Origin: Streptomyces marispadix
GTDB lineage: Bacteria > Actinomycetota > Actinomycetes > Streptomycetales > Streptomycetaceae
Reading direction: 5' to 3'
Assembly: GCF_022524345.1 (NCBI RefSeq)
Contig: NZ_JAKWJU010000002.1
Coordinates: 5,260,001 to 5,324,000 of the forward strand
DNA: 64,000 nucleotides
Shown: piece after piece, positions 6,071 through 50,971 of the stretch
How positions within the stretch are numbered: the stretch's first letter is position 1
Layout of the letters: the number at the start of each line of letters is the position of its first letter
Notes under the pieces: generated by a model
Database searches by the model: none
Seen by the model: only the letters and a program-made list of their open reading frames with translations
Told to the model about the DNA's origin: nothing
Translations under genes and position numbers: made by a program

Positions 6071-11782
<5,712 letters not shown>

Positions 11783-13029: not shown

Positions 13030-13043
13030 TAACCTCACCACCA
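13030..13043 (+). promoter_or_regulatory. -10 box of a predicted leaderless ftsK transcript
   Basis: TAACCT (13030-13035) is followed by 7 bases and then the ftsK ATG. There is no Shine-Dalgarno sequence in this interval. Transcription starting 7 bases after the -10 box would begin at the ATG itself. The -35 region is weak. Confidence 0.5.
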
Positions 13044-22214: not shown

Positions 22215-25200
22215 TCATCGTGCCCGCAGCCGCAGACCACGGGGAGTCGCATGGAAGCCGGCGCTCTCCAGGACGGTGCCGAACGGCGACGAGAGCGCGG
22301 GCGAGCCGTTGACCCGCTCCACGGTGACCGTGCCCAGCGCGCCCTCCAGTGCCGCTCGCGACAGTGCCTCCGCCGCGGTCGCCGGTGCGGGACGCCCGCC
22401 CGCCTCGGCGAAGTCGCTGTCCGTAAGCGGGACTTCGACCCCGGATGTGCCCGGCCAGACGAGCAAGGTCTTGCCGCCGCGCTCCATATAGACCGTCAAC
22501 TCGCCGTCGACCAGGACCACCACGGCGCCCGCCTTACGGCCCGGCTTGTGTGTGGCCCCCTCGGGAGGATCGGGCCAGGGCAGGGCCGCACCATAGGCGT
22601 TGGCCGGGTCGGCGGCGGCCAGGACCACCGCCCGGAAGTGCTGCTCGCGCTCGCGGGCCGTATGCACCGCGCGCAGCCTGTCGATGGCGCCGTCCATCGC
22701 GAACTGGGCCGCGCCCAGGCCCTCCACGACATACCCGCGTCGCGCCTGCCCGCTGTCCTCGAACGCCGAGAGCACCTTGTACGCCGCTGAGAAGCCGCCC
22801 TCCACGCCCTCGGCGGACACGGCGCCCCGAGTGACGACGCCGTGCCTGTCGAGCAGCGTACGAGCGAGGGCGTGTGCCCGGTGCGTCGCGTCCGTCTCGG
22901 CGGCCGGGAGCAGGGACCAGCGGCCCGCGACGGTCGGCGGACCGTTGCGCGAGGCGGTGGGGCGGTTCGTGCCGCTGCGGGTGGCGGACGCCGTCAGGGA
23001 GCCGTAACGGCCGCGTGGGACGGCGCGTTTGGCGCGGTGCGCCGTCGAGCCCGCCGTACGGCCCGAGCCGAGGAGGGCGCGGAGCGGCGCGAGCGTGTCA
23101 TTGGAGACGCGGCCGGACCACGCCAGATCCCATAGCGCGTCCGCCAGTTGGGGATCGGTGGCCTCCGGCTCCCCGGCGGCGCGCACCTGATCGGCGATCT
23201 GACGGAAGAACAGCCCGTAGCCGGGAGCCAGCGCATCGAGGACCGCCTGGTGGAGCGGCGTCAGCTCCAGCGGCAGGGGAGGCGGCAGCAGCAGCGGAGC
23301 CGAGTCGGCCGGATACAGCGAGAGCCAGCCGTCCTTGCCCGGCAGCGAGCCCGCGCCCGCCCACAACACCTCACCCGATGTGGTGAGTTCGTCGAGCATG
23401 CCAGGCCCGTAGTCCCGTACGCGTCCCGGCAGGACCAGCTTCTCCAGCGCGGACGCGGGCACCGGCGCGCCCTGCAACTGCTCGACTGTGCGCATCAGTC
23501 CGTCGATTCCGCGGACGCTGCCCGCGCCCGACGGTGACACGTGCTGCCACTGGGGCAGGAAAGCCGCGAGCGCCGCAGCGGGCACCGGCTCCAGCTCCTG
23601 CCGCAGCGCCGCCAGCGAGCGGCGCCGCAACCGGCGCAGCACCGCCGCGTCACACCACTCCTGGCCCACTCCCGCCGGGTGGAACTCGCCCTGTACGAGG
23701 CGGCCGGACGCCGCCAGCCGTTGCAGCGCGCCTTCCGCGACCGCGGTGCCCAGCCCGAAGTGCGCGGCGGCGTCGGCGGATACGAACGGGCCGTGCGTAC
23801 GGGCGTAACGGGCGAGGAGGTCGCCGAGGGGATCGGGCACCGGCTCCATGAACGCCTCCGGAACGCCCACCGGCAGGGCTGCGCCCAGGGCGTCCCGCAG
23901 TCTCCCCGCGTCCTCGATCGCGGCGAAGTGCTCGGCCCCGGCGATGCGTACGCGGATCGCCCGCCGCGCCGACTCCAGCTCCACGGCCCATCCGGGGTCG
24001 GCGCCGCGCTCCCGCAGGGCGTCAGCCGTCAGCGGCCCCAGGAGCCGCAGTACGTCGGCGACGCCCTCGGCGTCCTTCACCCGTCGGTCCTCGGTCAGCC
24101 ACTGGAGCTCACGCTCCAGCTCGGTCAGCACCTCCGCGTCGAGCAGCTCACGCAGCTCGGCCTGGCCCAGCAGCTCCGCCAGCAGCCGCGAGTCCAGCGA
24201 GAGGGCCGCGGCGCGGCGCTCCGCCAGCGGCGAGTCGCCCTCGTAGAGATACTGCGCGACATAGCCGAAGAGCAGTGAACGGGCGAAGGGCGACGGGTCG
24301 TTGGTGGTGACCTCGACGACGCGCACCCTGCGGGCCTCCACATCGCCCATCAGCTCCGCGAGGCCCGGCACGTCGAAGACGTCCTGAAGGCACTCCCGTA
24401 CCGCCTCCAGCACGATGGGGAAGGAGCCGAACTCCGAGGCGACCTGGAGCAGTTGAGCGGCGCGCTGCCGCTGCTGCCACAGCGGGGTGCGCTTGCCGGG
24501 GTCGCGGCGCGGCAGCAGCAGCGCACGCGCCGCGCACTCGCGGAAGCGGGCCGCGAAGAGCGCAGAGCCGCCGACCTGGTCCGTGACGATCTGCTCCACG
24601 TCTCCCGCGTCGAACAGGACGTCGGCGACGCCGACGGGCGCCTGCCCGTCGTCGAAGGCGGCACTTCTGCCGGAGGGCCCGGCGGCGGCCTCCTCCAGCA
24701 GATCGAGGCCCATCATGTCCGCGTCGGGAAGGCGCAGAACGAGGCCGTCGTCGGCGTGCATCACCTGGGCGTCCATGCCGTACCGCTCGGTGAGGCGGGC
24801 GCCCAGGGCCAGGGCCCAGGGGGCGTGCACCTGCGCGCCGAACGGCGAGTGCACCACGACCCGCCAGTCGCCCAGCTCGTCACGGAAGCGCTCGACCACG
24901 ATCGTGCGGTCGTCCGGGACATGGCCGCAGGCGCTGCGCTGCTCGTCGAGATACGCGAGCAGGTTGCCCGCCGCGAGCTCGTCCAGCCCAGCCGCGTCGA
25001 GCCGCTGCCGCGCCTCCTCCCGTCCGAGCGAGCCGACCTCACGCAGGAACGCACCCAGCGCACGCCCCAACTCCAGCGGGCGGCCAAGCTGATCGCCCTT
25101 CCAGAACGGCAGCCGTCCCGGCACTCCCGGAGCGGGCGTGACCAGCACACGGTCCCGCGTGATGTCCTCGATGCGCCACGAAGTGGTGCCCAGCGTGAAG

Positions 25201-26999
25201 ACGTCGCCCACACGGGACTCGTAGACCATCTCCTCGTCCAGCTCGCCGACCCGGCCGCCGCCCTTCTTGGGGTCGGCGCCCGCGAGGAAGACGCCGAAGA
25301 GACCACGGTCCGGGATCGTGCCGCCCGATGTGACGGCGAGACGCTGGGCGCCCGGCCTGCCGCTCAGGGTCTGCGCGACCCGGTCCCACACCAGGCGCGG
25401 ACGCAACTCCGCGAACGCGTCGGACGGATAGCGGCCCGCGAGCATGTCCAGCACCGCGTGGTACGCCGACTCGGGCAGCGAGGCGAACGGCGCCGCGCGG
25501 CGCACCAGAAGCAGCAGCTCCTCCACGTCCCAGGTGTCCACCGAGACCATCGCCACGAGCTGCTGCGCCAGAACGTCCAGCGGATTGGAGGGGATGCGCA
25601 GGGCCTCGATGGCGCCCTCGCGCATCCGCTCCGTGACGACGGCCGACTGCACAAGATCCCCGCGGTACTTGGGGAAGACCACACCCGCCGAGACCGCGCC
25701 CACCTGATGCCCGGCACGGCCCACCCGCTGAAGACCCGACGCGACCGACGGCGGCGACTCGACCTGTACGACCAGATCCACAGCGCCCATGTCGATGCCC
25801 AGCTCCAGGCTGGAGGTGGCGACGACGGCGGGCAGCCGCCCCGACTTCAGCTCCTCCTCCACCTGCGCACGCTGGTCCTTGGAGACCGATCCGTGGTGCG
25901 CGCGGGCCAGCAGCGGCGGTGCGCCCTTGGCCGCGCCCGCCTCGGCCATCACCTCCGCCGGCGAATGGTGCTCTGGCATGGGCTCGCCGGTGGCCCGTTC
26001 GTAAGCGATCTCGTTGAGCCTGTTGCACAGACGCTCGGCCAGGCGGCGGGAGTTGGCGAAGACGATCGTGGAGCGGTGCGCCTGCACGAGATCCGCGATG
26101 CGCTCCTCGACGGACGGCCAGATCGAGGGCTTCGCGCCGCTGCCGGGACCCGCGCCGCTGCCGGGACCCGCCCCGGCGTCCTGCGCGGGCGAACCGCCCA
26201 ACTCGCCCATGTCCTCGACGGGCACCACCACCGACAGGTCGAACTCCTTGCCCGACGGCGGCTGTACGACCGTGGCCTTGCGCTGTGGCGAGAGGAAACG
26301 CGCCACCTCGTCCACCGGGCGCACCGTCGCCGAGAGGCCGATGCGGCGCGCGGGACGCTTCAGCAGCTCGTCCAACCGCTCCAGGGACAGGGCCAGATGG
26401 GCACCGCGCTTGGTGCCGGCCACCGCGTGCACCTCGTCCAGGATCACCGTCTCCACGCCGGAGAGGGCGTCACGGGCCGCGGAGGTGAGCATCAGGAACA
26501 GCGACTCCGGCGTGGTGATCATGATGTCCGGAGGGCGGCGCGCCAGCGAGCGCCGCTCGGCCGCGGGGGTGTCACCGGAGCGGATGCCGACCCTGATGTC
26601 CGGCTCGGGCAGGCCGAGGCGCAGCGACTCCTGACGGATGCCGGTCAGGGGGCTGCGCAGATTGCGCTCCACGTCGACCGCGAGCGCCTTCAGGGGCGAT
26701 ACGTACAGCACCCGGCACCGCTTGAGCGGATCGGCGGGAGGGGGAGCGGAGGCAAGCCTGTCGAGCGAGGCGAGGAACGCGGCGAGGGTCTTGCCCGAGC
26801 CGGTCGGCGCCACGACCAGCGCGTCGGACTCCTCGGCGAGCGCGCGCCAGGCCCCCGCCTGCGCGGAGGTGGGCGCGCTGAAGGCCCCCGTGAACCAGGC
26901 CCGGGTCGCGGGGGAGAAGACGTCGAGAGCCGAGGCCGCGGAGGCGTCCGGCGAAGGGCCCGGCGAGGAGCCCGGAGAGGTCTGACCCATGCCGTCCAT
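22215..26999 (-). CDS. lhr: Lhr-type ATP-dependent DNA helicase
   Basis: A ~1594-residue superfamily-2 helicase. Walker A APTGSGKT is at about 64-71 and the DEAD-type box VILDEVHAV follows. The second RecA-like domain has TSSLELGIDMGAVDLV and QRVGRAGHQ, then the Lhr winged-helix and core extensions. A long C-terminal region of about 650 residues is typical of bacterial full-length Lhr, a 3'-5' helicase linked to DNA repair. A Gly/Pro/Ser tract (GAGPGSGAGPGSGAKPS, about residue 283) is a small low-complexity insert. The start is uncertain: ATG at 26999 or 26990 (MGQTSPG) are both possible, and a TTG at 27020 is less likely. Upstream of nei with the same orientation. Confidence 0.92.
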   Translation of the reverse strand: MDGMGQTSPGSSPGPSPDASAASALDVFSPATRAWFTGAFSAPTSAQAGAWRALAEESDALVVAPTGSGKTLAAFLASLDRLASAPPPADPLKRCRVLYVSPLKALAVDVERNLRSPLTGIRQESLRLGLPEPDIRVGIRSGDTPAAERRSLARRPPDIMITTPESLFLMLTSAARDALSGVETVILDEVHAVAGTKRGAHLALSLERLDELLKRPARRIGLSATVRPVDEVARFLSPQRKATVVQPPSGKEFDLSVVVPVEDMGELGGSPAQDAGAGPGSGAGPGSGAKPSIWPSVEERIADLVQAHRSTIVFANSRRLAERLCNRLNEIAYERATGEPMPEHHSPAEVMAEAGAAKGAPPLLARAHHGSVSKDQRAQVEEELKSGRLPAVVATSSLELGIDMGAVDLVVQVESPPSVASGLQRVGRAGHQVGAVSAGVVFPKYRGDLVQSAVVTERMREGAIEALRIPSNPLDVLAQQLVAMVSVDTWDVEELLLLVRRAAPFASLPESAYHAVLDMLAGRYPSDAFAELRPRLVWDRVAQTLSGRPGAQRLAVTSGGTIPDRGLFGVFLAGADPKKGGGRVGELDEEMVYESRVGDVFTLGTTSWRIEDITRDRVLVTPAPGVPGRLPFWKGDQLGRPLELGRALGAFLREVGSLGREEARQRLDAAGLDELAAGNLLAYLDEQRSACGHVPDDRTIVVERFRDELGDWRVVVHSPFGAQVHAPWALALGARLTERYGMDAQVMHADDGLVLRLPDADMMGLDLLEEAAAGPSGRSAAFDDGQAPVGVADVLFDAGDVEQIVTDQVGGSALFAARFRECAARALLLPRRDPGKRTPLWQQRQRAAQLLQVASEFGSFPIVLEAVRECLQDVFDVPGLAELMGDVEARRVRVVEVTTNDPSPFARSLLFGYVAQYLYEGDSPLAERRAAALSLDSRLLAELLGQAELRELLDAEVLTELERELQWLTEDRRVKDAEGVADVLRLLGPLTADALRERGADPGWAVELESARRAIRVRIAGAEHFAAIEDAGRLRDALGAALPVGVPEAFMEPVPDPLGDLLARYARTHGPFVSADAAAHFGLGTAVAEGALQRLAASGRLVQGEFHPAGVGQEWCDAAVLRRLRRRSLAALRQELEPVPAAALAAFLPQWQHVSPSGAGSVRGIDGLMRTVEQLQGAPVPASALEKLVLPGRVRDYGPGMLDELTTSGEVLWAGAGSLPGKDGWLSLYPADSAPLLLPPPLPLELTPLHQAVLDALAPGYGLFFRQIADQVRAAGEPEATDPQLADALWDLAWSGRVSNDTLAPLRALLGSGRTAGSTAHRAKRAVPRGRYGSLTASATRSGTNRPTASRNGPPTVAGRWSLLPAAETDATHRAHALARTLLDRHGVVTRGAVSAEGVEGGFSAAYKVLSAFEDSGQARRGYVVEGLGAAQFAMDGAIDRLRAVHTAREREQHFRAVVLAAADPANAYGAALPWPDPPEGATHKPGRKAGAVVVLVDGELTVYMERGGKTLLVWPGTSGVEVPLTDSDFAEAGGRPAPATAAEALSRAALEGALGTVTVERVNGSPALSSPFGTVLESAGFHATPRGLRLRAR

Positions 27000-27180
27000 C
27001 GTGCACCCGGCCACTGACAACGCCGAGTCACGGCCGTACGGGCGGGCGTACGCCCGTGCCCGCGCATGCGGTGGCGGCGGGCCGGGCAGGGCGCGGCGGC
27101 CGGAGGCTCACGCTTCGTGTGCAGCCTGAGCACAGAAAACACACGAGACCGGCGGCTGCCGCTCCGCTTAGCGTGGGTCC

Positions 27181-37300: not shown

Positions 37301-37652
37301 CGGCGTGTAGCTCCGTCCTCGTCGGTTGCGAGGACACTAATGAGCGACTGCCACCAGCGTCATTACATCTGAGGGGAAATTGAGCATAACGATCCCGTCG
37401 CGGAACGGACCCGGCCCCGCAGAAGCCGTGGAATCCGTAGTCTGTCGTACCGGCTGACAGACGGAAATCCCGTGCCACAGGGAGCACCTCGACTCACCTG
37501 CGACGATACGGGGGATGCAGTGCCGCGGCGCATGCCGTGGACGTGGCGCACGCCGTGCGCGGCCGCGGACTCAGAGTCGCGGGTCGCAGGGGCGGGTCGC
37601 ACGCGTAAGGTCGCGCGCCCGGGTGCGGCATCGCGGAGGGAGGGAGGCCCGA

Positions 37653-38375
37653 GTGAGGTTGCTGCTCGTCGAGGACGACATTCACGTCGCCACGGCGCTC
37701 TCGGCCGTGCTCGCACGGCACGGCTTCGACGTGGTGCACGCCCGCAGCGGCGAGGAGGCCCTCCGTGAGCTGCTGCCCTCCGAGGACGTGGCGCCCTTCG
37801 GTGTCGTACTGCTCGACCTGGGCCTGCCGGACCAGGACGGCTTCGAAGTGTGCGGCCGGATAAGGAAGATCAGTTCCACGCCCGTGATCATGGTGACTGC
37901 GCGTGGCGGCGTACGCTCCCGCATCCACGGGCTGAACCTCGGCGCCGACGACTACGTCGTCAAGCCCTACGACACCGGTGAGCTGCTGGCCCGTATCCAT
38001 GCCGTCAGCCGCCGTGCCGCCGTGCCCGAGGAGAGCGGCGAGTCCTCGCGCGACGAGGGCACGCCCGCGGACAGTACTCTCCGGGTCGGTGCCGTGACCA
38101 TCGAACTGCCCACGCGGCAGGTGTGTGTGGACGGCACCTCGGTGGCCCTGACACGCAAGGAGTTCGACGTGCTGGCGCTGCTCGCTCAGCGCCCGGGTGT
38201 CGTCTTCCGGCGGGAGCAGATCATCAGCGAGGTCTGGCGGACCAGTTGGGAGGGGACGGGGCGCACCCTGGAGGTGCATGTGGCGTCGCTGCGCTCCAAG
38301 CTGCAACTGCCCGCGCTGATCGAGACCGTGCGCGGTGTCGGCTACCGGCTTGTCGAGCCGTCGCAGCCGGCCTAG
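37653..38375 (+). CDS. OmpR/PhoB-type response regulator
   Basis: A 240-residue two-component regulator. The receiver (1-120) has LLLVEDDIH, the phosphoacceptor in VLLDLGLPDQDG (Asp55), Thr in IMVTAR and Lys in VVKPYD. The winged-helix output domain (about 145-238) ends in GRTLEVHVASLRSKL and TVRGVGYRLV. The GTG at 37653 has GGAGGGAGGGAGG upstream; the in-frame extension to 37515 is non-coding. It forms an operon with the sensor kinase 182 bases downstream. The signal is not known; it sits next to gluABCD in streptomycetes, but no link to glutamate is shown. Confidence 0.92.
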   Translation: MRLLLVEDDIHVATALSAVLARHGFDVVHARSGEEALRELLPSEDVAPFGVVLLDLGLPDQDGFEVCGRIRKISSTPVIMVTARGGVRSRIHGLNLGADDYVVKPYDTGELLARIHAVSRRAAVPEESGESSRDEGTPADSTLRVGAVTIELPTRQVCVDGTSVALTRKEFDVLALLAQRPGVVFRREQIISEVWRTSWEGTGRTLEVHVASLRSKLQLPALIETVRGVGYRLVEPSQPA

Positions 38376-38557
38376 CGCTGAGCGGTACGCCGAAGTCGCG
38401 TACGTACCTCGGTACGTGGGGGAAGAGGGCCACAGGGCCACGGGTCGAAGGGGGCCACCGGCCAGGACAGGCAGGACAAACAGGACGGGCCGTGACAAGC
38501 AGGCCAGGACAGGCGGAACAGGCCGCGCGGCCGTGAGACCGGGAGCCGGAAGAGACC

Positions 38558-40033
38558 ATGCACGCACGTCTGCTGCCACTGCTGATCGTTCTGCTCGCCG
38601 GTGTGCTGCTCGCTCTCGGCTTCCCGCTCGCCATGAGCCAGGCCGCCGCCGAACAGCAGCGCGTCGTCGTCGACCGCATCGACGACACCGCACGCTTCGC
38701 CGCGCTCGCCCAGTTCGTGGCCTCGTCGCCGGACGAGGGCGAGCGGCTGTCCATACTCCAGGACGAACTGCACCGCTATCACAGCCTCTACGGCATCGAC
38801 GCGGGCGTCTTCCTCCGCGACGGCCGCGCGCTCGGTGTCTCGCCCGGCGGCTGGAGCGTGCCCGAGTCGGGCGAGGGCGCCGACGCGTTCGCGGAGGCCC
38901 TCGCCGGGCGGCGCAGCCACGACCCCGAGCAGGTATGGCCCTGGCAGGAGGGGCACATCGCCGTCGCCTCGCCCGTCATCCGGGACGGCGACGTGGCAGC
39001 GGTCGTCCTCACCGACTCGCCGACAGGTCAACTGCGTTCGCGCATCCTCCAGGGCTGGCTCCCGATCATCGCGGGCGAGGCCGCCGCGATGCTGCTCGCC
39101 GTGGGGCTGGCGCTGCGACTGACGGGCTGGGTGCTGCGTCCCGTACGGACTCTGGACCGGGCGGCGCACGAGATCGCGGTCGGCCAGTTCAAGTCCCGCG
39201 TCGCCGCGTCCGGCGGCCCGCCCGAACTGCGCCACCTCGCCCGCTCGTTCAACGAGATGGCGGACAACGTCGAGAACGTGCTGGAGCAGCAGCGTGCCTT
39301 CGTCGCCGACGCCTCCCACCAGTTGCGCAATCCGCTCTCCGCGCTGCTGCTGCGCATAGAGCTGCTCGGGCTCGAACTGCCCGAGGCCGACGAGGAGTTC
39401 AAGTCCGTACAGGCCGAGGGGAAACGGCTGGCGCGGGTCCTGGACGATCTGCTCGATCTTGCCCTGGCCGAGCACGCGTCGGCGGATCTGCGGCTCACGG
39501 ACGTGGCGGAGGTGGCCGCCGAGCGCGTGGAGGCGTGGCGTCCGGTGGCGGAGATCAAGGGCGTGGTGCTGGAGTCGGAAGGCAGACAGGCCATTACGGG
39601 ATGGGCCGACCCCGTCACCCTCTCCAGCGCGATGGACGCGGTGGTCGACAACGCGATCAAGTTCACGCCCGAGGGAGAAAGCGTCACCGTCGGCGTCAGC
39701 AGGAAAGGCGACAGCGTCATCCTGGAGATCGCCGACCACGGCCCCGGGCTCACCGAAGAGGAGATGGAACGCATCGGCGACCGCTTCTGGCGCAGCAGCC
39801 GCCACCAGAACATCTCGGGCTCGGGCCTCGGCCTGTCGATCACCAGGGCGCTGCTGGCGTCGTGCGGCGCGAAGCTCGAGTACGCGCACAACGAACCGAA
39901 GGGCCTGCGCGTCGTGATCACGGTGCCGCGCAATGCGCCCACGGCGGACGAGGGCACGGGCGGCGAGGGCCGCCAGAGGCCGGTCGTCTCCCTGAAGAAG
40001 CGGCCGAGGGAGTCCGCCGAAGCGGACGCGTGA
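38558..40033 (+). CDS. Sensor histidine kinase of the adjacent response regulator
   Basis: A 491-residue membrane kinase. The first membrane segment is at about 5-27 and the second at about 167-189, enclosing a ~140-residue external sensor domain. A HAMP linker (about 190-240) leads to the phosphoacceptor box ASHQLRNPLSALLL (His254). The HATPase region has the N-box VVDNAIKFTP and the G-boxes DHGPGL and GSGLGLSI. The C-terminal ~35 residues are charged and disordered. Preceded by GGAAGAG at the ATG. The 182 bases between it and the regulator gene contain CCAGGACAGGC-type direct repeats of unknown meaning. Confidence 0.92.
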   Translation: MHARLLPLLIVLLAGVLLALGFPLAMSQAAAEQQRVVVDRIDDTARFAALAQFVASSPDEGERLSILQDELHRYHSLYGIDAGVFLRDGRALGVSPGGWSVPESGEGADAFAEALAGRRSHDPEQVWPWQEGHIAVASPVIRDGDVAAVVLTDSPTGQLRSRILQGWLPIIAGEAAAMLLAVGLALRLTGWVLRPVRTLDRAAHEIAVGQFKSRVAASGGPPELRHLARSFNEMADNVENVLEQQRAFVADASHQLRNPLSALLLRIELLGLELPEADEEFKSVQAEGKRLARVLDDLLDLALAEHASADLRLTDVAEVAAERVEAWRPVAEIKGVVLESEGRQAITGWADPVTLSSAMDAVVDNAIKFTPEGESVTVGVSRKGDSVILEIADHGPGLTEEEMERIGDRFWRSSRHQNISGSGLGLSITRALLASCGAKLEYAHNEPKGLRVVITVPRNAPTADEGTGGEGRQRPVVSLKKRPRESAEADA

Positions 40034-40267: not shown

Positions 40268-43200
40268 CTACCCCCTCGCGAAGCGCAGCGTCAGGATCTG
40301 GAACGGCCGGAGCGTCACCGACACCGAGCCGTCTGCCGACAGCTCACGCGCGGGGGCGTCCTCAAGCGGGCGTTCCAGGAGGTCCGTCTCGCTCACCGAC
40401 GTGACCGGGGTACCCGCGGTGACGACCGCGTGGGCGCGTCCGCCGTGCGACTCGTAGAGCCGTACGACGACGTCGCCGCTGCGGTCGTCCGCGAGCTTGA
40501 CCGCCTCGATCACGACCTGGTCGTTGTCGACGCCGACCAGTGGCGCCACGGCCTCGCCCGAGCCGCGCACCGTGCGCTCCGGCAGGTTGATCCAGTGGCC
40601 CTCCCGTACGGCGTCGCCGACGCTCGCGCCCGGCGCCAGCGCGAAGCGCAGCCGGTGGGTGCCCTGGTCGGTCTCCGGGTCCGGGTAGCGGGGCGCACGC
40701 AGCAGCGACAGGCGCACGGTGGTGGTCTGCCCGCCGTCGTCGCGGACCGTGCGGGTCACGTCGTGCCCGTATGTCGAGTCGTTGACGAGCGCCGCGCCCC
40801 AGCCGGGCTCCTCCACGTGGATCCAGCGGTGCGCGCAGATCTCGAACTTCGCCGTCTCCCACGAGGTGTTGGTGTGCGTCGGCCGGAAGACGTGCCCGAA
40901 CTGCGTCTCGGACGCGGACCGTTCGGCCTTCACATCCAGCGGGAAGGCGGCCTTGAGGAACATCTCGCTCTCGTGCCAGTCCACTTCGGTGTCGATGTCG
41001 AGCACCTTCGCACCGGCGCGCAGCGTCAGCCGCTGCACCACCTTCGAGTCGCCGAAGGAGCGGGCGACGCGCACCGTGGCGCGCTCCTCGCCGGATTCGG
41101 CCAGCTCCATCTCGTCCGTGCCGGTCAGGTCGGTGACGTTGTGCCGGTAGAAGCGGTCGACGTCCCAGGCGTCCCAGTGATTGGGCAGGTCCGGGTGGAT
41201 CTGGAGCAGGTTGGCCGCCTCGCCCGGTGCGACGCTCTCCCGGCGTCCCTCCTTGTCGTACGCGGAGACGACCAGGCCGCGTCCGTCGACCTCGATACGC
41301 AGCAGCCCGTTGGCCAACGTCCAGCCGCCGCCCGGCCGTTCCTCCACCGTGACGGGCGTGCCCCCGGCGCGCTCACGGGCCGGTGCCGCGCCGCCAGCGG
41401 CGACGCCGTCACGTGCGTGCGGCGCCGCGTTGAAGACGACCGGGACGTCGCCGCCGCCCACGAGCGCGGTCTGTGCGCCCGCGATGATCTCCTCCAGCTC
41501 GGACCGCACCCGTGCGTAGGTCTCCCGGGCCTCCCGGTGCACCCAGGCGATCGACGAGCCCGGCAGGATGTCGTGGAACTGGTGCAGCAGCACCGTCTTC
41601 CACAGCTCGTCCAGTTGCTCGTACGGATACTCGTACGGATCGGAACGCCCGGCGCGCACAGCGGCGGTGGCCGCCCACAACTCGGCCTCGCGCAGCAGGG
41701 ATTCGCTGTGCCGGTTGCCCTGCTTGGTCTTCGCCTGCGAGGTGTACGTGCCGCGGTGCAGCTCCAGATACAGCTCGCCCGCCCACACCGGGGCCTTCTC
41801 GCCGTACTCCTCGTGGGCCTTGGAGAAGAACGCCGACGGCTTCTCGACCGTCACCCGCGGCGACCCCTCCAGGTCCTTCAGCCGCTCCGCACGCGCCAGC
41901 ATCTCGCGCGTCGAACCGCCGCCCCCGTCGCCCCAGCCGAACGGCGCCAGCGAACGTGAACCGCTGCCCTTCTCCTGGTAGTTGCGCGCCGCGTGCGCCA
42001 TCTCGGCGCCGCCCAGGTCGGAGTTGTAGGTGTCGACGGGCGGGAAGTGCGTGAAGACCCGCGTGCCGTCGATGCCCTCCCACCAGAAGGTGTGATGCGG
42101 GAACTTGTTCGTCTCGCTCCACGAGATCTTCTGCGTCAGGAACCACTTGGCTCCCGCCAGCTTCACGATCTGCGGCATGGCCGCCGTATAGCCGAAGGAG
42201 TCCGGCAGCCACACCTCCCTGGTCTCGACGCCGAACTCCTCCAGGAAGAACCGCTTCCCGTAGACGAACTGCCGCGCCATGGCCTCGCCGCCGACCATGT
42301 TCGTGTCGGACTCGACCCACATGCCGCCCACCGGCACGAACTGCCCGTCCGCCACCTTCTTCTTGACCTTCGCGTACACCTCGGGCCGGTAGTTCTTGAT
42401 CCAGTCGAGCTGCTGCGCGGAGGACATCGCGAAGACGAACTCCGGGTGGTCGTCCATGAGATTGACCATGTTCGACGCCGTACGCGCCACCTTCCGTACC
42501 GTCTCGCGCACCGGCCACAGCCACGCCGAGTCGATGTGCGCATGCCCTACGGCGCTGACGCGGTGCGCGGAGGGACGCGCGGGAGTGGAGAGCACGCCGC
42601 TGAGCGCGGCCCGCGCGGCGGAGGCGTTGCCAACGATGTCATGAACGCCGAGAGCGTCCAGCGCCTCCTCGATCGCCCGCAGCAACTCCCAGCGCCGCGC
42701 GTCCTCCAGCGGCAGCTCCTTCATCAGCGACCCGGCGACCTCGAGGTCCTGCACCAGCTCCCACACCTCGGTCTCGAAGACCGCCAGGTCCATACGGCGC
42801 AGCCGGTAGAGCGGACGGTCGCTGGAGGTCAGCTTGTCGCCCTGGTACGTGGGCAGTTGGGGCGTGTTGACGATGGGGTTCGCCGCCGCCTCGACGAACA
42901 GCTCGACGTCCTCGCCCCCGGCCGCCGACTCCGCGACACGGACCCAGTCGTTGCGCGGGTTGAGCGCCTTCACGGCCTCGCCGTCGGCCCGGTAGACCAG
43001 CCCCTCGCACTGGAAGCCCGGCATGTTCCGGTCGAAGCCCAGGTCCAGCACCGCCTCTACGGTCCGTCCCTGCCACTCCGGCGGCACCCGCCCGGTCACC
43101 TTGAACCACGTCGTGCCCCACGCGGGGCCCCAGCGCTCACCTGCCTTCGAGGGCCCGTACGGGGCGGCGAGCCCTTCCGCCACGGGAACGGGTTCGCCGG

Positions 43201-43315
43201 GGGCATCCCAGCGCTCCACGGTCAGGGGCAGCGGACTGCTGTATACGGCGGGCTTGATCCGCTCGGCCAGGACACGGCGCAGGCGGTCCTCAACGATGCG
43301 GCGGTCGTCGTGCAT
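40268..43315 (-). CDS. Alpha-mannosidase, glycoside hydrolase family 38
   Basis: A 1015-residue cytoplasmic enzyme (no signal peptide) that hydrolyses alpha-mannosidic bonds with retention. The N-terminal jelly-roll-like region (about 1-245) precedes the catalytic barrel. Zinc ligands appear in GHAHIDSAWLWP (His258, His260, Asp262), and the nucleophile Asp372 lies in WLPDSFGYTAAMPQI. HQFHDILPGSSI carries another conserved zinc-site histidine. The beta-rich C-terminal half (about 620-1010) completes the GH38 plan. Full length for the family. No sugar transporter or regulator lies beside it, so the substrate (host glycan, glycoprotein or own mannosylated material) is unknown. The ATG at 43315 has CGGAG nearby. 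Confidence 0.93.
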   Translation of the reverse strand: MHDDRRIVEDRLRRVLAERIKPAVYSSPLPLTVERWDAPGEPVPVAEGLAAPYGPSKAGERWGPAWGTTWFKVTGRVPPEWQGRTVEAVLDLGFDRNMPGFQCEGLVYRADGEAVKALNPRNDWVRVAESAAGGEDVELFVEAAANPIVNTPQLPTYQGDKLTSSDRPLYRLRRMDLAVFETEVWELVQDLEVAGSLMKELPLEDARRWELLRAIEEALDALGVHDIVGNASAARAALSGVLSTPARPSAHRVSAVGHAHIDSAWLWPVRETVRKVARTASNMVNLMDDHPEFVFAMSSAQQLDWIKNYRPEVYAKVKKKVADGQFVPVGGMWVESDTNMVGGEAMARQFVYGKRFFLEEFGVETREVWLPDSFGYTAAMPQIVKLAGAKWFLTQKISWSETNKFPHHTFWWEGIDGTRVFTHFPPVDTYNSDLGGAEMAHAARNYQEKGSGSRSLAPFGWGDGGGGSTREMLARAERLKDLEGSPRVTVEKPSAFFSKAHEEYGEKAPVWAGELYLELHRGTYTSQAKTKQGNRHSESLLREAELWAATAAVRAGRSDPYEYPYEQLDELWKTVLLHQFHDILPGSSIAWVHREARETYARVRSELEEIIAGAQTALVGGGDVPVVFNAAPHARDGVAAGGAAPARERAGGTPVTVEERPGGGWTLANGLLRIEVDGRGLVVSAYDKEGRRESVAPGEAANLLQIHPDLPNHWDAWDVDRFYRHNVTDLTGTDEMELAESGEERATVRVARSFGDSKVVQRLTLRAGAKVLDIDTEVDWHESEMFLKAAFPLDVKAERSASETQFGHVFRPTHTNTSWETAKFEICAHRWIHVEEPGWGAALVNDSTYGHDVTRTVRDDGGQTTTVRLSLLRAPRYPDPETDQGTHRLRFALAPGASVGDAVREGHWINLPERTVRGSGEAVAPLVGVDNDQVVIEAVKLADDRSGDVVVRLYESHGGRAHAVVTAGTPVTSVSETDLLERPLEDAPARELSADGSVSVTLRPFQILTLRFARG

Positions 43316-44083: not shown

Positions 44084-44293
44084 TCAGCGCTGCGTGGCGT
44101 AGCGGAGGAAGCGCGTCCAGCCGCCGCGCGGCACGGTGAGGTGGGGACCCTCCGGGTCCTTGGAGTCCCGTATGTGTACGGCGGAGGTCGCCTCGGCGAC
44201 CTCGACGCATTCGGCACCCTCGTCGTCGCTGTAGCTGCTCTTGCGCCACGTACATGTGGACCGTATGCCGGATGTCCTCCGCATGTCCCTCAT
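44084..44293 (-). CDS. DUF397 protein (BldB/WhiJ-partner type)
   Basis: A 69-residue protein of the DUF397 family, with TWRKSSYSDDEGAECVEVAE, VHIRDSKDPEGPHLTVPRGGW and a final FL. Such proteins are abundant in streptomycetes and are usually encoded beside an XRE-type regulator, as here. The family includes partners of WhiJ-like regulators that relieve repression. The ATG at 44293 overlaps the stop of the XRE gene by four bases (ATGA), so it is translated after it. An upstream in-frame extension is part of the XRE gene read in another frame. Confidence 0.9.
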   Translation of the reverse strand: MRDMRRTSGIRSTCTWRKSSYSDDEGAECVEVAEATSAVHIRDSKDPEGPHLTVPRGGWTRFLRYATQR

Positions 44294-45153
44294 AGCTCTC
44301 CTGCCAACTGCTCGATGAATCGGGCAGATTGCTCGGTGTCCAGGGCCTGCATGCGGATGATTCCATGCCGCTGGATGCATGTCTGTAGCGGTTCTCGGTC
44401 AGTGATGAAGCTGCTCATGCCTTGAGTCTCGCTGTACGCGAGCGACCGGCCGTCACGCGTCTCCAGGAGGACGAGAGGCCCGAGAGGGCTGAACTGCCAT
44501 CGCTCCATCGGCATTACCTGGATCGACACGTGTCGGAGTGCGGATCGCTCCAGCAGCAGATTGAGCTGTTCCTTCATCACCGACGGGCCGCCGACCGGCC
44601 GTCGCAGCGCGGCCTCCTCGATCACGAATCCGAGCACCACCGCGGGGGACCTGTCGAAGATCTCCTGCCGTTCGAGCCGTGCCGCGACGCGGTCTTCCAC
44701 CGTTCCATCATTCAAGGGCGGGCAGTTCTGGCTCATCAACGCTTCGATGTACGGCTTCGTCTGCAACAGCCCAGGGACCCTGAACGGACTGTACGAATGG
44801 AAGCTCTCCGCGTCCCTCTCCCATTTGGCGAAGTCACGGAATCGGGCAGGCAGTCGTGCCTGGTCCACGATGTCCTCGATTGCGGCAAGCATCCCTCCCG
44901 CATCGAGAACTCGCTCCGCTCCCGTGATGAACTGCGGCTTCGGAGGACGCCTTCCCCGCTCCACTGACGAGACCTGATCGACGCCGTAACCGATCTGGCC
45001 CCCGAACTCCGCCTGTGTGAGCCCCGCCTTGTCCCGCAGATACTTGATCTGCGTGCCGACCGCCTTCAGCAGCGGGTCGCCACTGTCCGCCGCAATCGTC
45101 CAACTTCCTTCATGCTGAGCCGACTTCGCTTCGTGATCGCCTTCGCTGATCAT
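44290..45153 (-). CDS. XRE-family regulator with DUF5753 (WhiJ-like)
   Basis: A 287-residue protein. The N-terminal HTH (about 30-85, IKYLRDKAGLTQAEFGGQIG, then VSSVERGRRPP) is followed by a DUF5753 domain (about 105-285) with FRVPGLLQTKPYIEALM and VAARLERQEIF. This is the architecture of WhiJ and its many paralogues, which repress developmental genes in Streptomyces and are countered by DUF397 partners. The ATG at 45153 has a GGGGGTGGG site; an extension to 45204 is unlikely. Base composition is visibly less GC-biased than its neighbours. Divergent from an anti-sigma-like ATPase, giving the full triad. Confidence 0.92.
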   Translation of the reverse strand: MISEGDHEAKSAQHEGSWTIAADSGDPLLKAVGTQIKYLRDKAGLTQAEFGGQIGYGVDQVSSVERGRRPPKPQFITGAERVLDAGGMLAAIEDIVDQARLPARFRDFAKWERDAESFHSYSPFRVPGLLQTKPYIEALMSQNCPPLNDGTVEDRVAARLERQEIFDRSPAVVLGFVIEEAALRRPVGGPSVMKEQLNLLLERSALRHVSIQVMPMERWQFSPLGPLVLLETRDGRSLAYSETQGMSSFITDREPLQTCIQRHGIIRMQALDTEQSARFIEQLAGEL

Positions 45154-45236
45154 TGGCCCACCCCCTTCATCCGTACTCAACACTCCGCACCAGGGACTCG
45201 TCACCGCTGGCTACTCGGACGTATGCGTGGGTGCTT

Positions 45237-45259
45237 CCGTACAACCGGTACTGGTACGG
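45237..45259. promoter_or_regulatory. Inverted-repeat operator candidate in the divergent XRE/ATPase promoter region
   Basis: CCGTAC (45237-45242) and GTACGG (45254-45259) frame a core with a third GTAC. A second small inverted repeat, GACC-GATTAT-GGTC, lies at about 45272-45285. Both are between the divergent WhiJ-like and ATPase genes. Confidence 0.35.
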
Positions 45260-45305
45260 CTCATCCCCCTCGACCGATTATGGTCGGCCAACCACGCTCA
45301 GTGAC

Positions 45306-45854
45306 GTGAAAACCGAGATCAGCCGGGCCGAAATCGGCGCGCCCGTACATGAATTCGTGCAGCTCTTCAGTTCGACTCCGCGCGGAGCGCGGCTCGCCCG
45401 GCTCGTGGGCGTTCGGCAACTCGCCGCGTGGGGCTGGCCGTACGACGACGAGGTCTCGCAGACCGGTTCGCTACTGATCGGGGAACTGGCCGCGAACGCC
45501 GCCACTCACGGCCGCGTCGTGGGACGTCGCTTCCGGCTCCGCATGGCCACCGGTCCGGGGCTGCTGCTCCCGGCCACGCTGCGGATCGAGGTGGCCGACG
45601 CCAGGGGCGAGTCCGTACCGCCTCCGGCTCCGGCTCAACTTCCGCCCCTCGACGCCGAGTCGGGCCGTGGCCTGCTGCTCGTACAGACGCTCGCGACCCG
45701 TTGGGGCACAGCTCCCCGCTCGCCGTCAGGCAAGACCGTCTGGGCGGATCTAGATCTGGACCAGGGCCAGGTCAGGGACGAGGGTCTGGGCGGGGACGCG
45801 GCCACATCAGCCCGATCCGAGCTCCCGGCCGAGGCCGCCGCGCTCACGGGCTGA
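45306..45854 (+). CDS. Anti-sigma-like ATP-binding protein (RsbW-type HATPase)
   Basis: A 182-residue protein of the HATPase_c_2 group. The N-box is LLIGELAANAATHGRV, the G-boxes are RIEVADARG and ESGRGLLLVQTLATRWGT, and the C-terminal strand is TVWADLDL. Such single-domain ATPases resemble anti-sigma kinases and are the third member of WhiJ-like triads in streptomycetes. The GTG at 45306 (KTEISRAEIG) is preferred; the long in-frame extension upstream covers the promoter region. The last ~20 residues are Ala/Glu-rich. The target sigma factor or partner is unknown. Confidence 0.87.
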   Translation: MKTEISRAEIGAPVHEFVQLFSSTPRGARLARLVGVRQLAAWGWPYDDEVSQTGSLLIGELAANAATHGRVVGRRFRLRMATGPGLLLPATLRIEVADARGESVPPPAPAQLPPLDAESGRGLLLVQTLATRWGTAPRSPSGKTVWADLDLDQGQVRDEGLGGDAATSARSELPAEAAALTG

Positions 45855-46034
45855 CGCGATTGCGCGCCCTCGCACCCCGACGAGCCGAACGGGTCCGGTC
45901 GCCCCGGGCCCGCCGACTCCCGTCGCCTGTACGGCAGTTGGCGCCCCGACGCGCCCGACGTGGGCCCCGTCACGTACGACTACGATGACGGCCGGTTCCG
46001 ATGGCGGACGAAGGCGACACAACGGGGGCGCGCC

Positions 46035-48047
46035 GTGGCCGGGTACAACCCGCTTCAGTTCTCACTGATCAACGACGAGCCGGTCACCGACGCGGAGTCG
46101 GATCTGCTGGGCGCTCGCGACCCGGCGCAGCAGCTCGCCGCGCTGCTGGTCGCGTCACGCACCTCCACGCCCTTCACACTGGCCGTCGATTCGGGGTGGG
46201 GTACGGGCAAGAGCAGCCTGATGCGCCTGGTCGACAAGGAGCTGACGGAGGTCCACGGGGCGCGCACGGTCTGGTACAACGCGTGGACTTCGACCGATGC
46301 GGACAGGCCGGACACCCTCGAAGGTCTGATCAAGTCCGTTCTGATGCGCTTCGACAAGCGGATCGTGCGTCGCGTGATTCAGAGCTTCTCCGAGCGCAGA
46401 ACCCTGCGGGCGTTCTGCCGCGCCGTCTTCGTACTGCTTGTGGGCGTGCTCGGGCTCGCTCCGCTGGTGAACCGGTTGTGGAAGGAGTTCTCCGTAAGTC
46501 CGCAGGCCCGGAACGCCACGCGGCAGGCGATCAGAACGGCAGTGGAGGAGCGGGTCGAGAACGGCGACTTCTCTCCGAGGGAACTGCTGGTCGTCTTCAT
46601 CGACGATCTGGACCGCTGCTCGGAGGAGACGGTTCTCGCGGTGTGCGAGGCGGTGAAGGTCTATCTGGACGTGCCGGGGCTCGCGTTCGTCATCGGATGC
46701 GACCGCTCGGCGCTCTCGTCGAACGGTCTGCTGCGCGACCTGTCACCGGCCGGGTCGGCGTTCATGGAGAAGATCTTCCAGACGACCTTCCGGATTCCCG
46801 TACCGGACAGCGACGGCATCGAGGACTTCGTACGCCGGTGCGCTCGCGACTCCGGCATTCTCATGCTGCTCAACGAAGGACTCGTCACGCGCATCGCCGA
46901 TCACTCCCAGCGCAATCCGCGGCGCATCAAGAAGCTGATCAACGGCTTCGTGCTGGAGGTCGGACTCAACCCGCTGTGGCGGGACTTCGTGTCCCAGGCC
47001 GCCGACACCGTGGTCAGCGCTCTCGTACTCCAGTACCTCTACCCGGACTTCTACCGGATGCTGGTCGGCCGGGTCGGCGCGGACGGCGACGTGCTCAACG
47101 AGTTCCAGACGTACCGTCAGGTGAGGCTCAGGCTCCTGGAGGTCGACGGCGACGCGGCGAGCGACGAGGAGGTCGTGCGCTTCTTCGCGGAACACCAGGT
47201 ACGGCAGCCGCTGCTCGGGAACTCCGGCGCATGGGCTGAGAACCTGTCCGAGCTGGAAGCACAACTGCCCAGCGGCTTCCCGGAGTTGGCCAGTGACCGT
47301 GGATTCACGTCCCTGGTCGACGACTTGATGAACGAGCCGGAGGCGGAAGAGCTGATCAACCGGCTCCGGCAGCAGCCGCTCCAGAGCGCGGCCGAGCCCG
47401 CCGCGCCGCAGCCGGAGCCGTATGCCCCGGGGTACCAGTCGTACCCCGTTCCGCAGGCCTACCAGCCGTATCAGGGGATGCACGCGCCCCAGGGGCTGAA
47501 CGCGCCCCAGGGGATGCAGGCGTACCCGCCGTACCAGTCGTATCCGCCTCTTCCGCCCGAGCCGACCGGCACCGCGGACGGCTCCAGGGGGCGCACCGCG
47601 CCGGCGCTGGAGGGCATGCACATCCTCTGGATCGACGACAGCCCGGACACCGTGGAACTGGACGTACGGGCGCTGCGCCGGGCAGGCGCGTCGGTCGAGG
47701 TGGTGGAGGACCGGGCGGAGGCGGAGCGCCGTCTCGCGGGGGAGGACCACGACTTGCTGATCTCGGACATCACCCGCGGTGCCGACCGGGAGGGGGGGTT
47801 CAAGGACGTCGAAGGTCTCGCGCGTGGCAACTTCTACACGGGCCCGGTGATCTTCTACACGGGCAGGGTCACGCCCGCCCGCGAGGCACGAGCCGAGGAG
47901 TTGGGCGCCGGGATCACGGCGAGCCCCGACATGCTCCAGCGGTTGGTCGCCAGGGTCGCGGCGGGGCGCGATTCGCGCGTCGACCCGCAGGCCCAGTCAC
48001 AGTCGCCGTCGCAGGTGCCGTCACAGGCGCAGACGCCGCCTGCGTAG
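46035..48047 (+). CDS. KAP-family P-loop NTPase fused to a receiver-like domain
   Basis: A 670-residue protein. The KAP NTPase core (about 15-330) has Walker A GWGTGKSS (54-61), a hydrophobic segment (about 126-150) inserted between the Walker motifs as is typical of membrane-linked KAP proteins, and Walker B LLVVFIDDLDR (about 184-194). A helical region and a Pro/Tyr/Gln-rich linker (about 450-520) follow. A receiver-like domain comes next (about 528-645): ILWIDDSPD, the putative phosphoacceptor in LLISDITR (Asp578) and YTGRV; the usual active-site lysine is replaced in GITASPD. KAP NTPases include the phage-exclusion protein PifA. The GTG at 46035 has GGGGG nearby; a GTG at 45960 is possible but lacks a ribosome site. 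No recognised partner is encoded in the same operon. Confidence 0.85.
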   Translation: MAGYNPLQFSLINDEPVTDAESDLLGARDPAQQLAALLVASRTSTPFTLAVDSGWGTGKSSLMRLVDKELTEVHGARTVWYNAWTSTDADRPDTLEGLIKSVLMRFDKRIVRRVIQSFSERRTLRAFCRAVFVLLVGVLGLAPLVNRLWKEFSVSPQARNATRQAIRTAVEERVENGDFSPRELLVVFIDDLDRCSEETVLAVCEAVKVYLDVPGLAFVIGCDRSALSSNGLLRDLSPAGSAFMEKIFQTTFRIPVPDSDGIEDFVRRCARDSGILMLLNEGLVTRIADHSQRNPRRIKKLINGFVLEVGLNPLWRDFVSQAADTVVSALVLQYLYPDFYRMLVGRVGADGDVLNEFQTYRQVRLRLLEVDGDAASDEEVVRFFAEHQVRQPLLGNSGAWAENLSELEAQLPSGFPELASDRGFTSLVDDLMNEPEAEELINRLRQQPLQSAAEPAAPQPEPYAPGYQSYPVPQAYQPYQGMHAPQGLNAPQGMQAYPPYQSYPPLPPEPTGTADGSRGRTAPALEGMHILWIDDSPDTVELDVRALRRAGASVEVVEDRAEAERRLAGEDHDLLISDITRGADREGGFKDVEGLARGNFYTGPVIFYTGRVTPAREARAEELGAGITASPDMLQRLVARVAAGRDSRVDPQAQSQSPSQVPSQAQTPPA

Positions 48048-49751: not shown

Positions 49752-50225
49752 TCAGGCGCTCGCGGGTGGCGGTGAACGCCTCACCGGCCGCCGGGCGGAA
49801 GACGGGCTCCGCGCAGTGCCCGCGGCGCCCTGCCCGGTGGCGCTCTGTCCGGTAGCGCCCCGCTCCCTCGTCCCCTGCGCCGCGTCGTCCGCGTCGTCCG
49901 TGTGGCCGTCGGCCACGTGTGCCTCGCCCGCCTGCCGCGACTGCTCGACGATCCGCTGAAGCGCGGAGACATGGTCCTCCAGCGCGGTGCGTCCGTCCTC
50001 GCTGAGGTTCAGCCAGGTCCGCGGACGCTTGCCCACGTAGCCCTTCTCGACCTCCACATAGCCCTGCTTGCCCAGGGTCGTGACCTGCTTGGACAGCGCC
50101 GAGTCGGACATGCCCACGGCGTCGCGCACCCAGCCGAACTCGGCCCACTCCGTGGCCGCCAGGAGCGACACGATGGACAGGCGCGTGGGGTCGAGGAGGA
50201 CCGGGTCGAGGTCGGCGTGCGTCAT
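49752..50225 (-). CDS. Winged-helix transcriptional regulator
   Basis: A 157-residue protein. LDPVLLDPTRLSIVSLLAATEWAEFGWVRDAVGMSDSALSKQVTTLGKQGYVEVEK is a complete winged-helix DNA-binding domain (about 5-85), close to the MarR/ArsR-like group, with the wing segment KRPRTWLNLSEDGRTAL. The C-terminal 60 residues are Gly/Ser/Arg-rich and disordered. Its ATG at 50225 overlaps the stop of the upstream membrane protein gene (ATGA). Likely a repressor of the pair through the palindromes at 50770-50840. Confidence 0.87.
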   Translation of the reverse strand: MTHADLDPVLLDPTRLSIVSLLAATEWAEFGWVRDAVGMSDSALSKQVTTLGKQGYVEVEKGYVGKRPRTWLNLSEDGRTALEDHVSALQRIVEQSRQAGEAHVADGHTDDADDAAQGTRERGATGQSATGQGAAGTARSPSSARRPVRRSPPPASA

Positions 50226-50737
50226 GTGCGGACCGCGCCCGTCCCGTGCGGTGTGCCGCGCTTGCCGGGCGAGAGCAGCGCCCTCTCCAGCGTGGGGCCG
50301 AAGAAGATCAGTACGGCGGCCAGTACCGCGCCGAGAGCGGTGTGCCAGTAGGGGAGGTCGAGGTGTGCTCCCGAGAGGCCGACCGCGAGCGCGAGGACCA
50401 CGATCACGAGTGGCACCCATCGGGTCCGGGCGGCGGCGTTCCTTGCGACGGCCTTCCTGTCGACCCGGGCCGACCGGCCCAGCGCGCTCGATCCGCGTCG
50501 CGTCCGCAGCAGTATCGCGTACAGGACGATCAGGAGCGAAAACCCTATGGATATCCATGAGTTGGCGTCGCTTCCCAGGAAGTCACGGGAGGCGAGGTTC
50601 ACCAGCAGCAGCACGCCGACGACCACCCGGACCCAGGTCGCGTCGCTCGTCGCGGTATCCAGCGCCTGCTCTTCGCGCCGGCCGATCTGCTCCAGGGCGC
50701 GTGCCGCCTCGTCGGGCGTAGGACGCCGGTCGGTCAT
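50222..50737 (-). CDS. Membrane protein paired with a winged-helix regulator
   Basis: A 171-residue protein with four hydrophobic segments in two hairpins (about 35-85 and 110-150: WVRVVVGVLLLVNLA, ISIGFSLLIVLYAILL, WVPLVIVVLALAVGLSG, HTALGAVLAAVLIFFG). The N-terminal ~30 residues are charged. No known function was recognised. The ATG at 50737 has GGGAGTGG upstream; the in-frame extension to 50884 runs through the operator palindromes. First gene of a two-gene operon with the regulator. Confidence 0.82.
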   Translation of the reverse strand: MTDRRPTPDEAARALEQIGRREEQALDTATSDATWVRVVVGVLLLVNLASRDFLGSDANSWISIGFSLLIVLYAILLRTRRGSSALGRSARVDRKAVARNAAARTRWVPLVIVVLALAVGLSGAHLDLPYWHTALGAVLAAVLIFFGPTLERALLSPGKRGTPHGTGAVRT

Positions 50738-50769
50738 CGTGACCACTCCCGTACTTTCTCTCGTCGGAA

Positions 50770-50792
50770 CTACTTTCCTAGCGGGAAAGTAG
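50770..50792. promoter_or_regulatory. Perfect palindrome CTACTTTCC-N5-GGAAAGTAG, operator candidate
   Basis: Nine-base arms (50770-50778 and 50784-50792) are exact reverse complements around TAGCG. It lies 33 bases upstream of the membrane protein gene on the minus strand. A related site is 46 bases away. Confidence 0.7.
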
Positions 50793-50813
50793 CAGTCCGT
50801 TGTCCGGATCGGC

Positions 50814-50840
50814 AAGTGGTTTCCTGAGTGGAAAGTGCTT
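50814..50840. promoter_or_regulatory. Second, weaker TTTCC-N5-GGAAA operator candidate
   Basis: TTTCC (50820-50824) and GGAAA (50830-50834) with the same 5-base spacing, flanked by AAG and CTT. The distance to the first site, centre to centre, is 46 bp. Confidence 0.5.
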
Positions 50841-50971
50841 GGTGTGGAGGGGAGTTGGCGGAGGGCGGTCGTGGGGCGGCGCACGGGGGCCGTGCAGAGC
50901 GGCGTGCCCGCGGGCTGGTCACGCTCTCGCGTGGACGGATCACGCGGTCCCGGGCGTCCGCGTCAACTGCC

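Follow-up and report, generated by a model that had tools for sequence, protein, structure and literature searches.

The gene at positions 46035 to 48047 of the Streptomyces marispadix DNA examined here raises the question of what a KAP P-loop NTPase does with a receiver-like domain joined to its own C-terminus. The window, meaning the whole 64,000-nucleotide stretch that was analyzed, is taken from contig NZ_JAKWJU010000002.1 (positions 5,260,001 to 5,324,000). A preliminary description of this DNA had read the gene as a fusion of the two domains and had proposed a part in phage defence; its observation was confirmed in this study and its interpretation was partly supported. In the reading preferred here, which is held to be about as likely as not, the protein would be a stand-alone KAP ATPase whose activity is governed in cis by the atypical receiver at its C-terminus.

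Architecture of the KAP-REC protein

The gene, referred to as KAP-REC, and the parts of its product are as follows.

46035..48047, plus strand: KAP-REC gene, 670 aa, GTG start, stop included
46125..46949, plus strand: KAP P-loop NTPase domain, residues 31-305 (Pfam PF07693, E 3e-28)
46194..46217, plus strand: Walker A GWGTGKSS, residues 54-61 (GxGxGK[ST][ST] in 119/120 aligned members)
46413..46469, plus strand: hydrophobic segment between Walker A and B, residues 127-145 (KD mean 2.36)
46584..46616, plus strand: Walker B region, residues 184-194 (DDLD 190-193, in 120/120)
46965..47372, plus strand: extension after the KAP core, residues 311-446 (conserved alignment columns)
47373..47612, plus strand: Pro/Ala/Gln/Tyr-rich linker, residues 447-526 (length in the 120 aligned proteins: 26-153 residues)
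47616..47969, plus strand: atypical receiver domain, residues 528-645 (Response_reg E 3.1e-6; profile to CheY E 8e-12)
47766..47768, plus strand: Asp578, equivalent of the phospho-accepting Asp (D in 119/120)
47775..47777, plus strand: Arg581, invariant D+3 residue (120/120; 78/78 in a broader set)
47922..47924, plus strand: Ser630 at the canonical switch-lysine position (Lys in 1/120)

A second in-frame GTG lies upstream at 45960; the relatives P0004 and P0007 begin at the equivalent of 46035, and relatives' N-termini (MAGYNP or MAGIDP) agree with this start. The protein search scored 7999 candidates and found 629 proteins at E<=0.001, the best 120 of which were examined for family features. 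Most of the named ones among these 120 come from Streptomyces and are entered as 'response regulator' or 'P-loop NTPase fold protein'. The family to which the gene belongs is conserved and actinobacterial, and databases label it only by its domains. The alignment of 120 proteins comprises the window protein and 119 others, with the identical P0002 left out. A diverse set of 78 rows, 57 of them from the same protein search, reaches Saccharopolyspora, Amycolatopsis, Nocardia, Actinopolyspora, and Phytohabitans.

The fusion was borne out by profile searches of the kind that the preliminary description had advised. The KAP_NTPase match scored 99.4 bits against a Pfam cut-off of 20, and the Walker A and Walker B motifs, located as described earlier, are intact in 119 and 120 of the 120 aligned members, respectively, as is characteristic of KAP P-loop NTPases. 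Aravind reportedly described in 2004 KAP P-loop NTPases with transmembrane segments inserted in the NTPase domain, and a membrane insert had been claimed for this protein as well. By hydropathy the window protein has a single such segment, a strong hydrophobic stretch spanning residues 123-149 (KD peak 2.36). As a KD of 1.6 or more is reached at the segment in only 42 of 121 family members, a transmembrane segment is no clear family trait, and a conventional transmembrane KAP became a weaker candidate.

The extension at residues 311-446 was also found in the ClpC-KAP relatives described below, where the match runs to residue 951 of 963. The linker has the lowest identity to the sister species among the four protein parts (0.57). 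Against this one sister species, simple Nei-Gojobori estimates of dN/dS were 0.16 for the KAP domain, 0.25 for the extension, 0.24 for the receiver, and 0.35 for the linker; in this pair every part of KAP-REC is under purifying selection, which is weakest in the linker.

The receiver domain and its proposed working

As a single sequence, residues 530-625 matched Response_reg at 27.8 bits, slightly under the Pfam cut-off of 30.2. A receiver profile of 19 rows matched 138 PDB sequences at E<=0.01, the best being the CheY structure 4h60, and nearly all of the best 60 of these 138 matches were receivers. By its sequence the C-terminal segment counts as a receiver, since the family profile matches solved receivers, and a chance match was ruled out by the E-value of 8e-12 to CheY.

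The WIDDSPD motif (residues 532-538) and Asp578 lie where the preliminary description had placed them. D534 was found in all 120 aligned members, D535 in 118, and D578 in 119; the complete Asp triad, that is, the acidic pair and the phospho-accepting Asp of REC domains, was kept in 118 (119 with Glu allowed). The switch residues fared differently. At position 609, Thr was found in 74 members, Ala in 42, and Ser in four, with Arg at T+2 in 115. At the lysine site 630, the counts were S50, N29, D22, Q8, G6, E3, K1, and A1, the lone Lys being that of P0024. With Lys in one of 120 and Thr or Ser in 78, the domain is an atypical receiver. The lysine loss noted earlier was thus seen across the family, and the term pseudo-receiver proved too strong for a domain that keeps its three acidic residues.

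Two further residues, W532 beside the Asp pair and R581, were invariant in the alignment. In the diverse set, R581 was found in 78 of 78 rows, D578 in 77, and W532 in 76, and the mean column identity was 0.98 for the acidic triad, 0.69 where the Thr stands, and 0.37 at the Lys position. Conservation within the receiver peaks, over 15 residues, at 603-617 on the beta4-alpha4 side (secondary-structure names by analogy to CheY), which speaks for the preferred reading; against it, the beta4-alpha4 mean of 0.70 is lower than that of beta1 (0.77) and beta3 (0.81). KAP-REC has in common with CheY-type receivers the profile match, the acidic triad, and a Thr in 74 of 120 members, and differs from them in the missing switch Lys, the invariant W532 and R581, and its position C-terminal to an NTPase.

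The same pattern recurs outside the family. With the receiver profile, 98 short proteins were detected at E<=0.001. Of these, 77 carry LW.DD...SDxxR as KAP-REC does, without a KAP domain; pieces of KAP-REC genes from short contigs may be among them. A hydrophobic segment starts within the first 60 residues in 43 of the 77, and by pattern 27 have Arg at the Lys position. Stand-alone receivers of this kind occur in Streptomyces. In the window genome, five profile matches were found at E<=1e-6, where the best was the KAP-REC gene and the other four were weaker than 1.1e-7. The recurrence of the W532/R581 pattern in stand-alone receivers suggests that the KAP-REC tail belongs to a wider, putative subtype of atypical receivers. 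The name 'SDxxR-type' and the grouping were coined in this analysis, and nothing on such a subtype was found in the literature searched on nearby subjects. Five such stand-alone proteins in genomes of the genus (L185, L186, L190, L191, and L192), each with a hydrophobic segment at the N-terminus, have no neighbor common to all five.

In the proposed working, the KAP ATPase would be stand-alone and cytosolic or membrane-apposed, and ATP binding and hydrolysis by its core would bring about a switch in conformation or oligomeric state. Held on the flexible linker, the receiver would serve as a docking or ligand-sensing site that gates the core. It would keep the metal-binding acidic pocket without the Thr/Lys relay pair, and as this pair transmits phosphorylation, an ordinary His-Asp phosphoswitch is not expected. 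An input role, as proposed in the preliminary description, would fit a pocket kept without Thr and Lys. The intact Walker motifs and the acidic triad in 118 of 120 members argue for this reading. In Streptomyces sp. HPF1205, the second of the KAP-REC copies (L058, 8045-10321) has lost the acidic pocket and kept the beta4-alpha4 stretch YAGPVVFFTSRLTPAR, as would be expected of a docking face. We infer the ATPase activity, the gating in cis, the recognition target of the receiver, and the cellular process, the last of which we guess to be a response of filamentous actinomycetes to stress or conflict. No functional data for any KAP-REC member were found in the literature searched.

Conservation of the acidic triad would also be expected of a phosphorylatable domain, and the loss of Lys alone leaves phosphorylation possible. 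KAP-REC could then be an ordinary response regulator, in which a histidine kinase phosphorylates Asp578 and thereby switches the ATPase on or off. The triad, the Thr or Ser at 609, and the Arg at T+2 are in keeping with this, as is a histidine-kinase-like gene directly upstream. The closest upstream neighbors are listed below.

45153..45854, plus strand: HATPase_c_2 protein (Pfam PF13581, E 1.1e-9), 180 bp upstream on the same strand as KAP-REC
44290..45204, minus strand: HTH-DUF5753 regulator (Pfam PF19054, E 5.6e-47)
44084-44380, minus strand: DUF397 ORF (PF04149, E 2.3e-22)

By gene clustering, Streptomyces sp. WMMB 322 (L031) has both the HTH-DUF5753 and the HATPase genes. However, Lys is retained in one of 120 members and Ala takes the place of Thr in 42, the window's two-component pair (37515-40033 by our own reading) is 6 kb distant, and no histidine-kinase family was among the 25 commonest of 105 Pfam families matched by 95 neighbor genes of other loci. 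In the sister genome (G233), moreover, KAP-REC is flanked by homologs of the window genes at 40268-43315 (92% identity) and 50222-50884 (64%), and no homologs of the GNAT, HTH-DUF5753, HATPase, and PadR neighbors were called. The outer flanks are kept there, and these four are probably no partners of KAP-REC. A conventional response regulator is judged unlikely.

Distribution, genomic sites, and the defence question

The distribution of KAP-REC is narrow and patchy. A long match (E<=4e-106) was found in 24 of 295 Streptomyces genomes, including that of the window, and one more genome had a fragment of 212 residues. In a phylum-wide sample, two of 396 genomes matched at E<=1e-40; they belong to this genus, and the window genome is one of them. 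From a scan of named genomes 79 loci were retained, roughly 50 of which are actinobacterial. Among 48 actinobacterial KAP loci that were scanned, including 18 that had contributed to the profile, 43 have a receiver. The five without a receiver are the four ClpC-KAP loci and L076. The latter (9608-11470, Amycolatopsis sp. WAC 01376) encodes a KAP with an extra N-terminal region and, in place of the receiver, a C-terminal double-zinc-ribbon match under the Pfam cut-off. Two other KAP loci (L051 9818-12472 and G137:C1:7107201-7108259) have two tandem atypical receiver segments.

Across the KAP-REC loci and sites compared, no constant partner gene was found, and the gene has a usual site. Aminotransferase, D-aminoacylase, or deaminase-like neighbors lie within 5 kb in 25 of 48 gene-called loci, all 25 among the 32 such loci of the Streptomycetaceae. 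The aminotransferase is Aminotran_1_2 by Pfam, and the other two names are our own reading. In a sample of 121 genomes, all have the aminotransferase and 117 have the D-aminoacylase. Ten of the 12 full KAP-REC copies in this sample sit beside the core aminotransferase (including G050, where it is adjacent), nine of them between it and the core D-aminoacylase. The two copies elsewhere are those of G117 and of the window genome; in the latter, some 0.9 Mb separate the gene from the flank pair, and it lies in a region that we read as recA-miaB-dapF.

The gap between the two flanking genes varied from 43 bp to 26 kb in 106 same-contig pairs: it was 200 bp or less in 11, held an intact KAP-REC in nine, and held a remnant in two. 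The entire gap was 1.9-2.2 kb in five of the nine intact cases, room for KAP-REC alone. In the other four it was 3.6-3.8 kb, so other genes can share the site. These five gaps, together with the upstream regulator and HATPase genes not called in the sister genome, favor a one-gene unit. Cargo was read from the N-termini of genes called by an in-house program in 40 flank intervals that were hand-picked and not random. The decayed remnants (L150 and L175, in G079 and G068) lie in two of these intervals. A gene cluster common to 25 of the 40 has a called frame that looks antisense, and other cargo, by our own reading, included genes such as regulators, transporters, a helicase, and a small heat-shock protein. 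On this reading of the 40 intervals, the idea that the site is a hotspot for defence genes was set aside; a share of the cargo may nevertheless be defensive.

Patchy presence and decayed remnants would suit an anti-phage gene. KAP-REC could be a single-gene defence NTPase of the abortive-infection type, similar to PifA or Tmn, with the receiver as phage sensor. Its KAP core matches the PADLOC models of PifA (E 1.5e-27) and QatA (E 5.1e-21). The accessible part of one source describes Tmn as a KAP-family NTPase inhibiting T2, P1, phiVi, and phiX (PMC11846954), and that of another reports counter-invader loci in which Orc/CDC6 proteins have a KAP NTPase next to them (PMC10853773).

The likeness is, however, restricted to the core. 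The match to PifA, the phage-exclusion KAP NTPase of the F plasmid (PDLC02361), spans profile positions 5-259 of 720, short of a full-length PifA, and KAP-REC here has no plasmid context. PifA is not known to carry a receiver. For the Qat system, compared through QatA alone, the core matches NF041923 (E 1.9e-23) at 83 bits against an NCBIfam equivalog cut-off of 600, so KAP-REC falls outside QatA. Tmn has two transmembrane domains in the accessible part of its description (PMC11846954), whereas KAP-REC has one hydrophobic segment by hydropathy, weaker in most members, and a receiver; it is set apart from Tmn by description.

The genomic context also speaks against defence. A PADLOC scan of 38 of the 40 called genes of the window matched 55 families, the best 25 of which were considered, and ten genes were scanned singly. 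Besides KAP, the strong matches were a long helicase 19 kb away and an FtsK-like gene, both taken for housekeeping. The helicase (22215-27020, 1601 aa) matched DpdJ at 9.6e-188 (625 bits) as well as BrxH, SngC, DruE, DpdF, PsyrT, and HamB, and is presumably a housekeeping Lhr-type helicase. The FtsK-like gene at 13043 was the source of the SspH match and one mad8 match, and weaker matches were to mad3, AriA, and a second mad8. The HTH-DUF5753, HATPase, and PadR neighbors had no PADLOC match when scanned singly. An HTH_VI match came from a small regulator at 20127. This small HTH protein (20127-20510) matched only HTH_3, HTH_31, and weakly HTH_25 in Pfam, and we take it to resemble ClgR, the regulator of clp genes.

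Of 174 neighbor genes in 21 other loci, the 95 genes of 16 loci were scanned. They matched 34 PADLOC families at E<=1e-10, where the best 25 families each matched a single gene and 21 of these 25 were PD-T4-6 models, probably one Ser/Thr kinase. The 25 commonest of the 105 Pfam families matched near these loci included transport components, PhoD, MFS, ROK, dehydrogenases, and acyl-CoA dehydrogenase. KAP-REC had no match in the phage records or the viral contigs searched, and none of 39 matching plasmid records covered 80% of the protein; the first listed, a Streptomyces plasmid, had 36.5% identity over 65%. A defence island was rejected on this context (the window, the neighbors of 16 loci, and the phage, plasmid, and viral records, with no statistical control set). 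The defence neighborhood expected for homologs in the preliminary description was therefore not borne out: the usual site lies between core metabolic genes, and the neighbors of the 16 other loci are mostly metabolic. Given the patchy presence, the second location, the two remnants, and the relation of the KAP core to the PifA and QatA models, we regard a defence role as a tentative alternative with a modest chance of being right.

In the open-licence literature on KAP, receivers, STAND, PifA, and phage defence, no title on a fusion of KAP with a receiver was found. In their accessible parts, related sources report receiver domains as sporadic among vWA-associated effectors (PMC7159879), list a KAP NTPase among hypermutated targets (PMC10907252), call the mechanism of Tmn unexplored (PMC11846954), and, in a work on Geobacter evolution, contain both 'KAP NTPase' and 'receiver domain' (PMC13194489).

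ClpC-KAP chimeras and the meaning of the fusion

In four loci from four actinobacterial genera (Amycolatopsis, Actinocrispum, Crossiella, and Mycolicibacterium), KAP is fused behind the N-terminal half of ClpC (Clp_N, AAA, AAA_lid_9, and UVR) and no receiver is present. Their positions within the loci are given below.

8648-11380 of L072: ClpC-KAP chimera, UVR under the Pfam cut-off
8174-11422 of L073: ClpC-KAP chimera
8483-11374 of L074 (Actinocrispum): ClpC-KAP chimera
8494-11392 of L077 (Crossiella): ClpC-KAP chimera, UVR not reported, Clp_N called as a separate, overlapping ORF

These chimeras belong to the same KAP clade as KAP-REC (37-42% identity) and differ from it in having the ClpC N-half where KAP-REC has the receiver. 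In the Actinocrispum protein, residues 1-488 are 71% identical to the ClpC of the window genome and residues 506-951 match the window KAP-REC at 36%, so here KAP occupies the position of ClpC's second AAA+ domain. A tree built without four distant rows (L086, L087, L095, and L103) and the truncated ORF of L031 placed the chimeras in one branch (100/99) beside the receiver-bearing branches, with the receiver-bearing Phytohabitans next to it at weak support (83/30). The Walker A lysine of D1 survives in L073 but not in L072, L074, or L077. Near L073, a weak receiver match lies on the opposite strand (E 7.7e-4). Nothing relevant on ClpC joined with KAP was found in the literature searched.

The chimeras bring in a reading as a protein-quality-control ATPase, in which KAP would be a partner of the Clp machinery, with the receiver as a docking domain of the adaptor kind. 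CpdR and RssB are receiver-type adaptors for ClpXP; CpdR is among the weak NCBIfam matches of the receiver (E 2.1e-4) and RssB among its PDB matches, and the second AAA+ domain gives way to this KAP in the four sister-lineage loci. On the other side, the receiver matches point to receivers in general, no Clp family was among the 25 commonest Pfam families near 16 receiver-type loci, three of the four chimeras are without the D1 Walker A lysine, and the ClpC fusion, as a separate branch, may have arisen independently. A role in protein quality control is thus considered improbable. Its widest form is just as doubtful: the actinomycete KAP could be a clade of signaling ATPases with one of two partner modules, a receiver that works independently of phosphorylation or, in sister lineages, the half of ClpC that binds substrates, a STAND-like NTPase replacing an AAA+ ring, and the window protein would then be the receiver-gated branch of an unrecognized protein-surveillance machine.

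The fusion offers a genetically simple way to study the regulation of KAP NTPases, which is open even for the known defence member Tmn, as far as the accessible part of its source goes (PMC11846954). The receiver points to a putative subtype marked by a W beside the Asp pair and an R at D+3, with an acid pocket lacking the Thr/Lys relay. The ClpC-KAP chimeras suggest that the KAP module can replace an AAA+ ring, which, if functional, would link two NTPase worlds.
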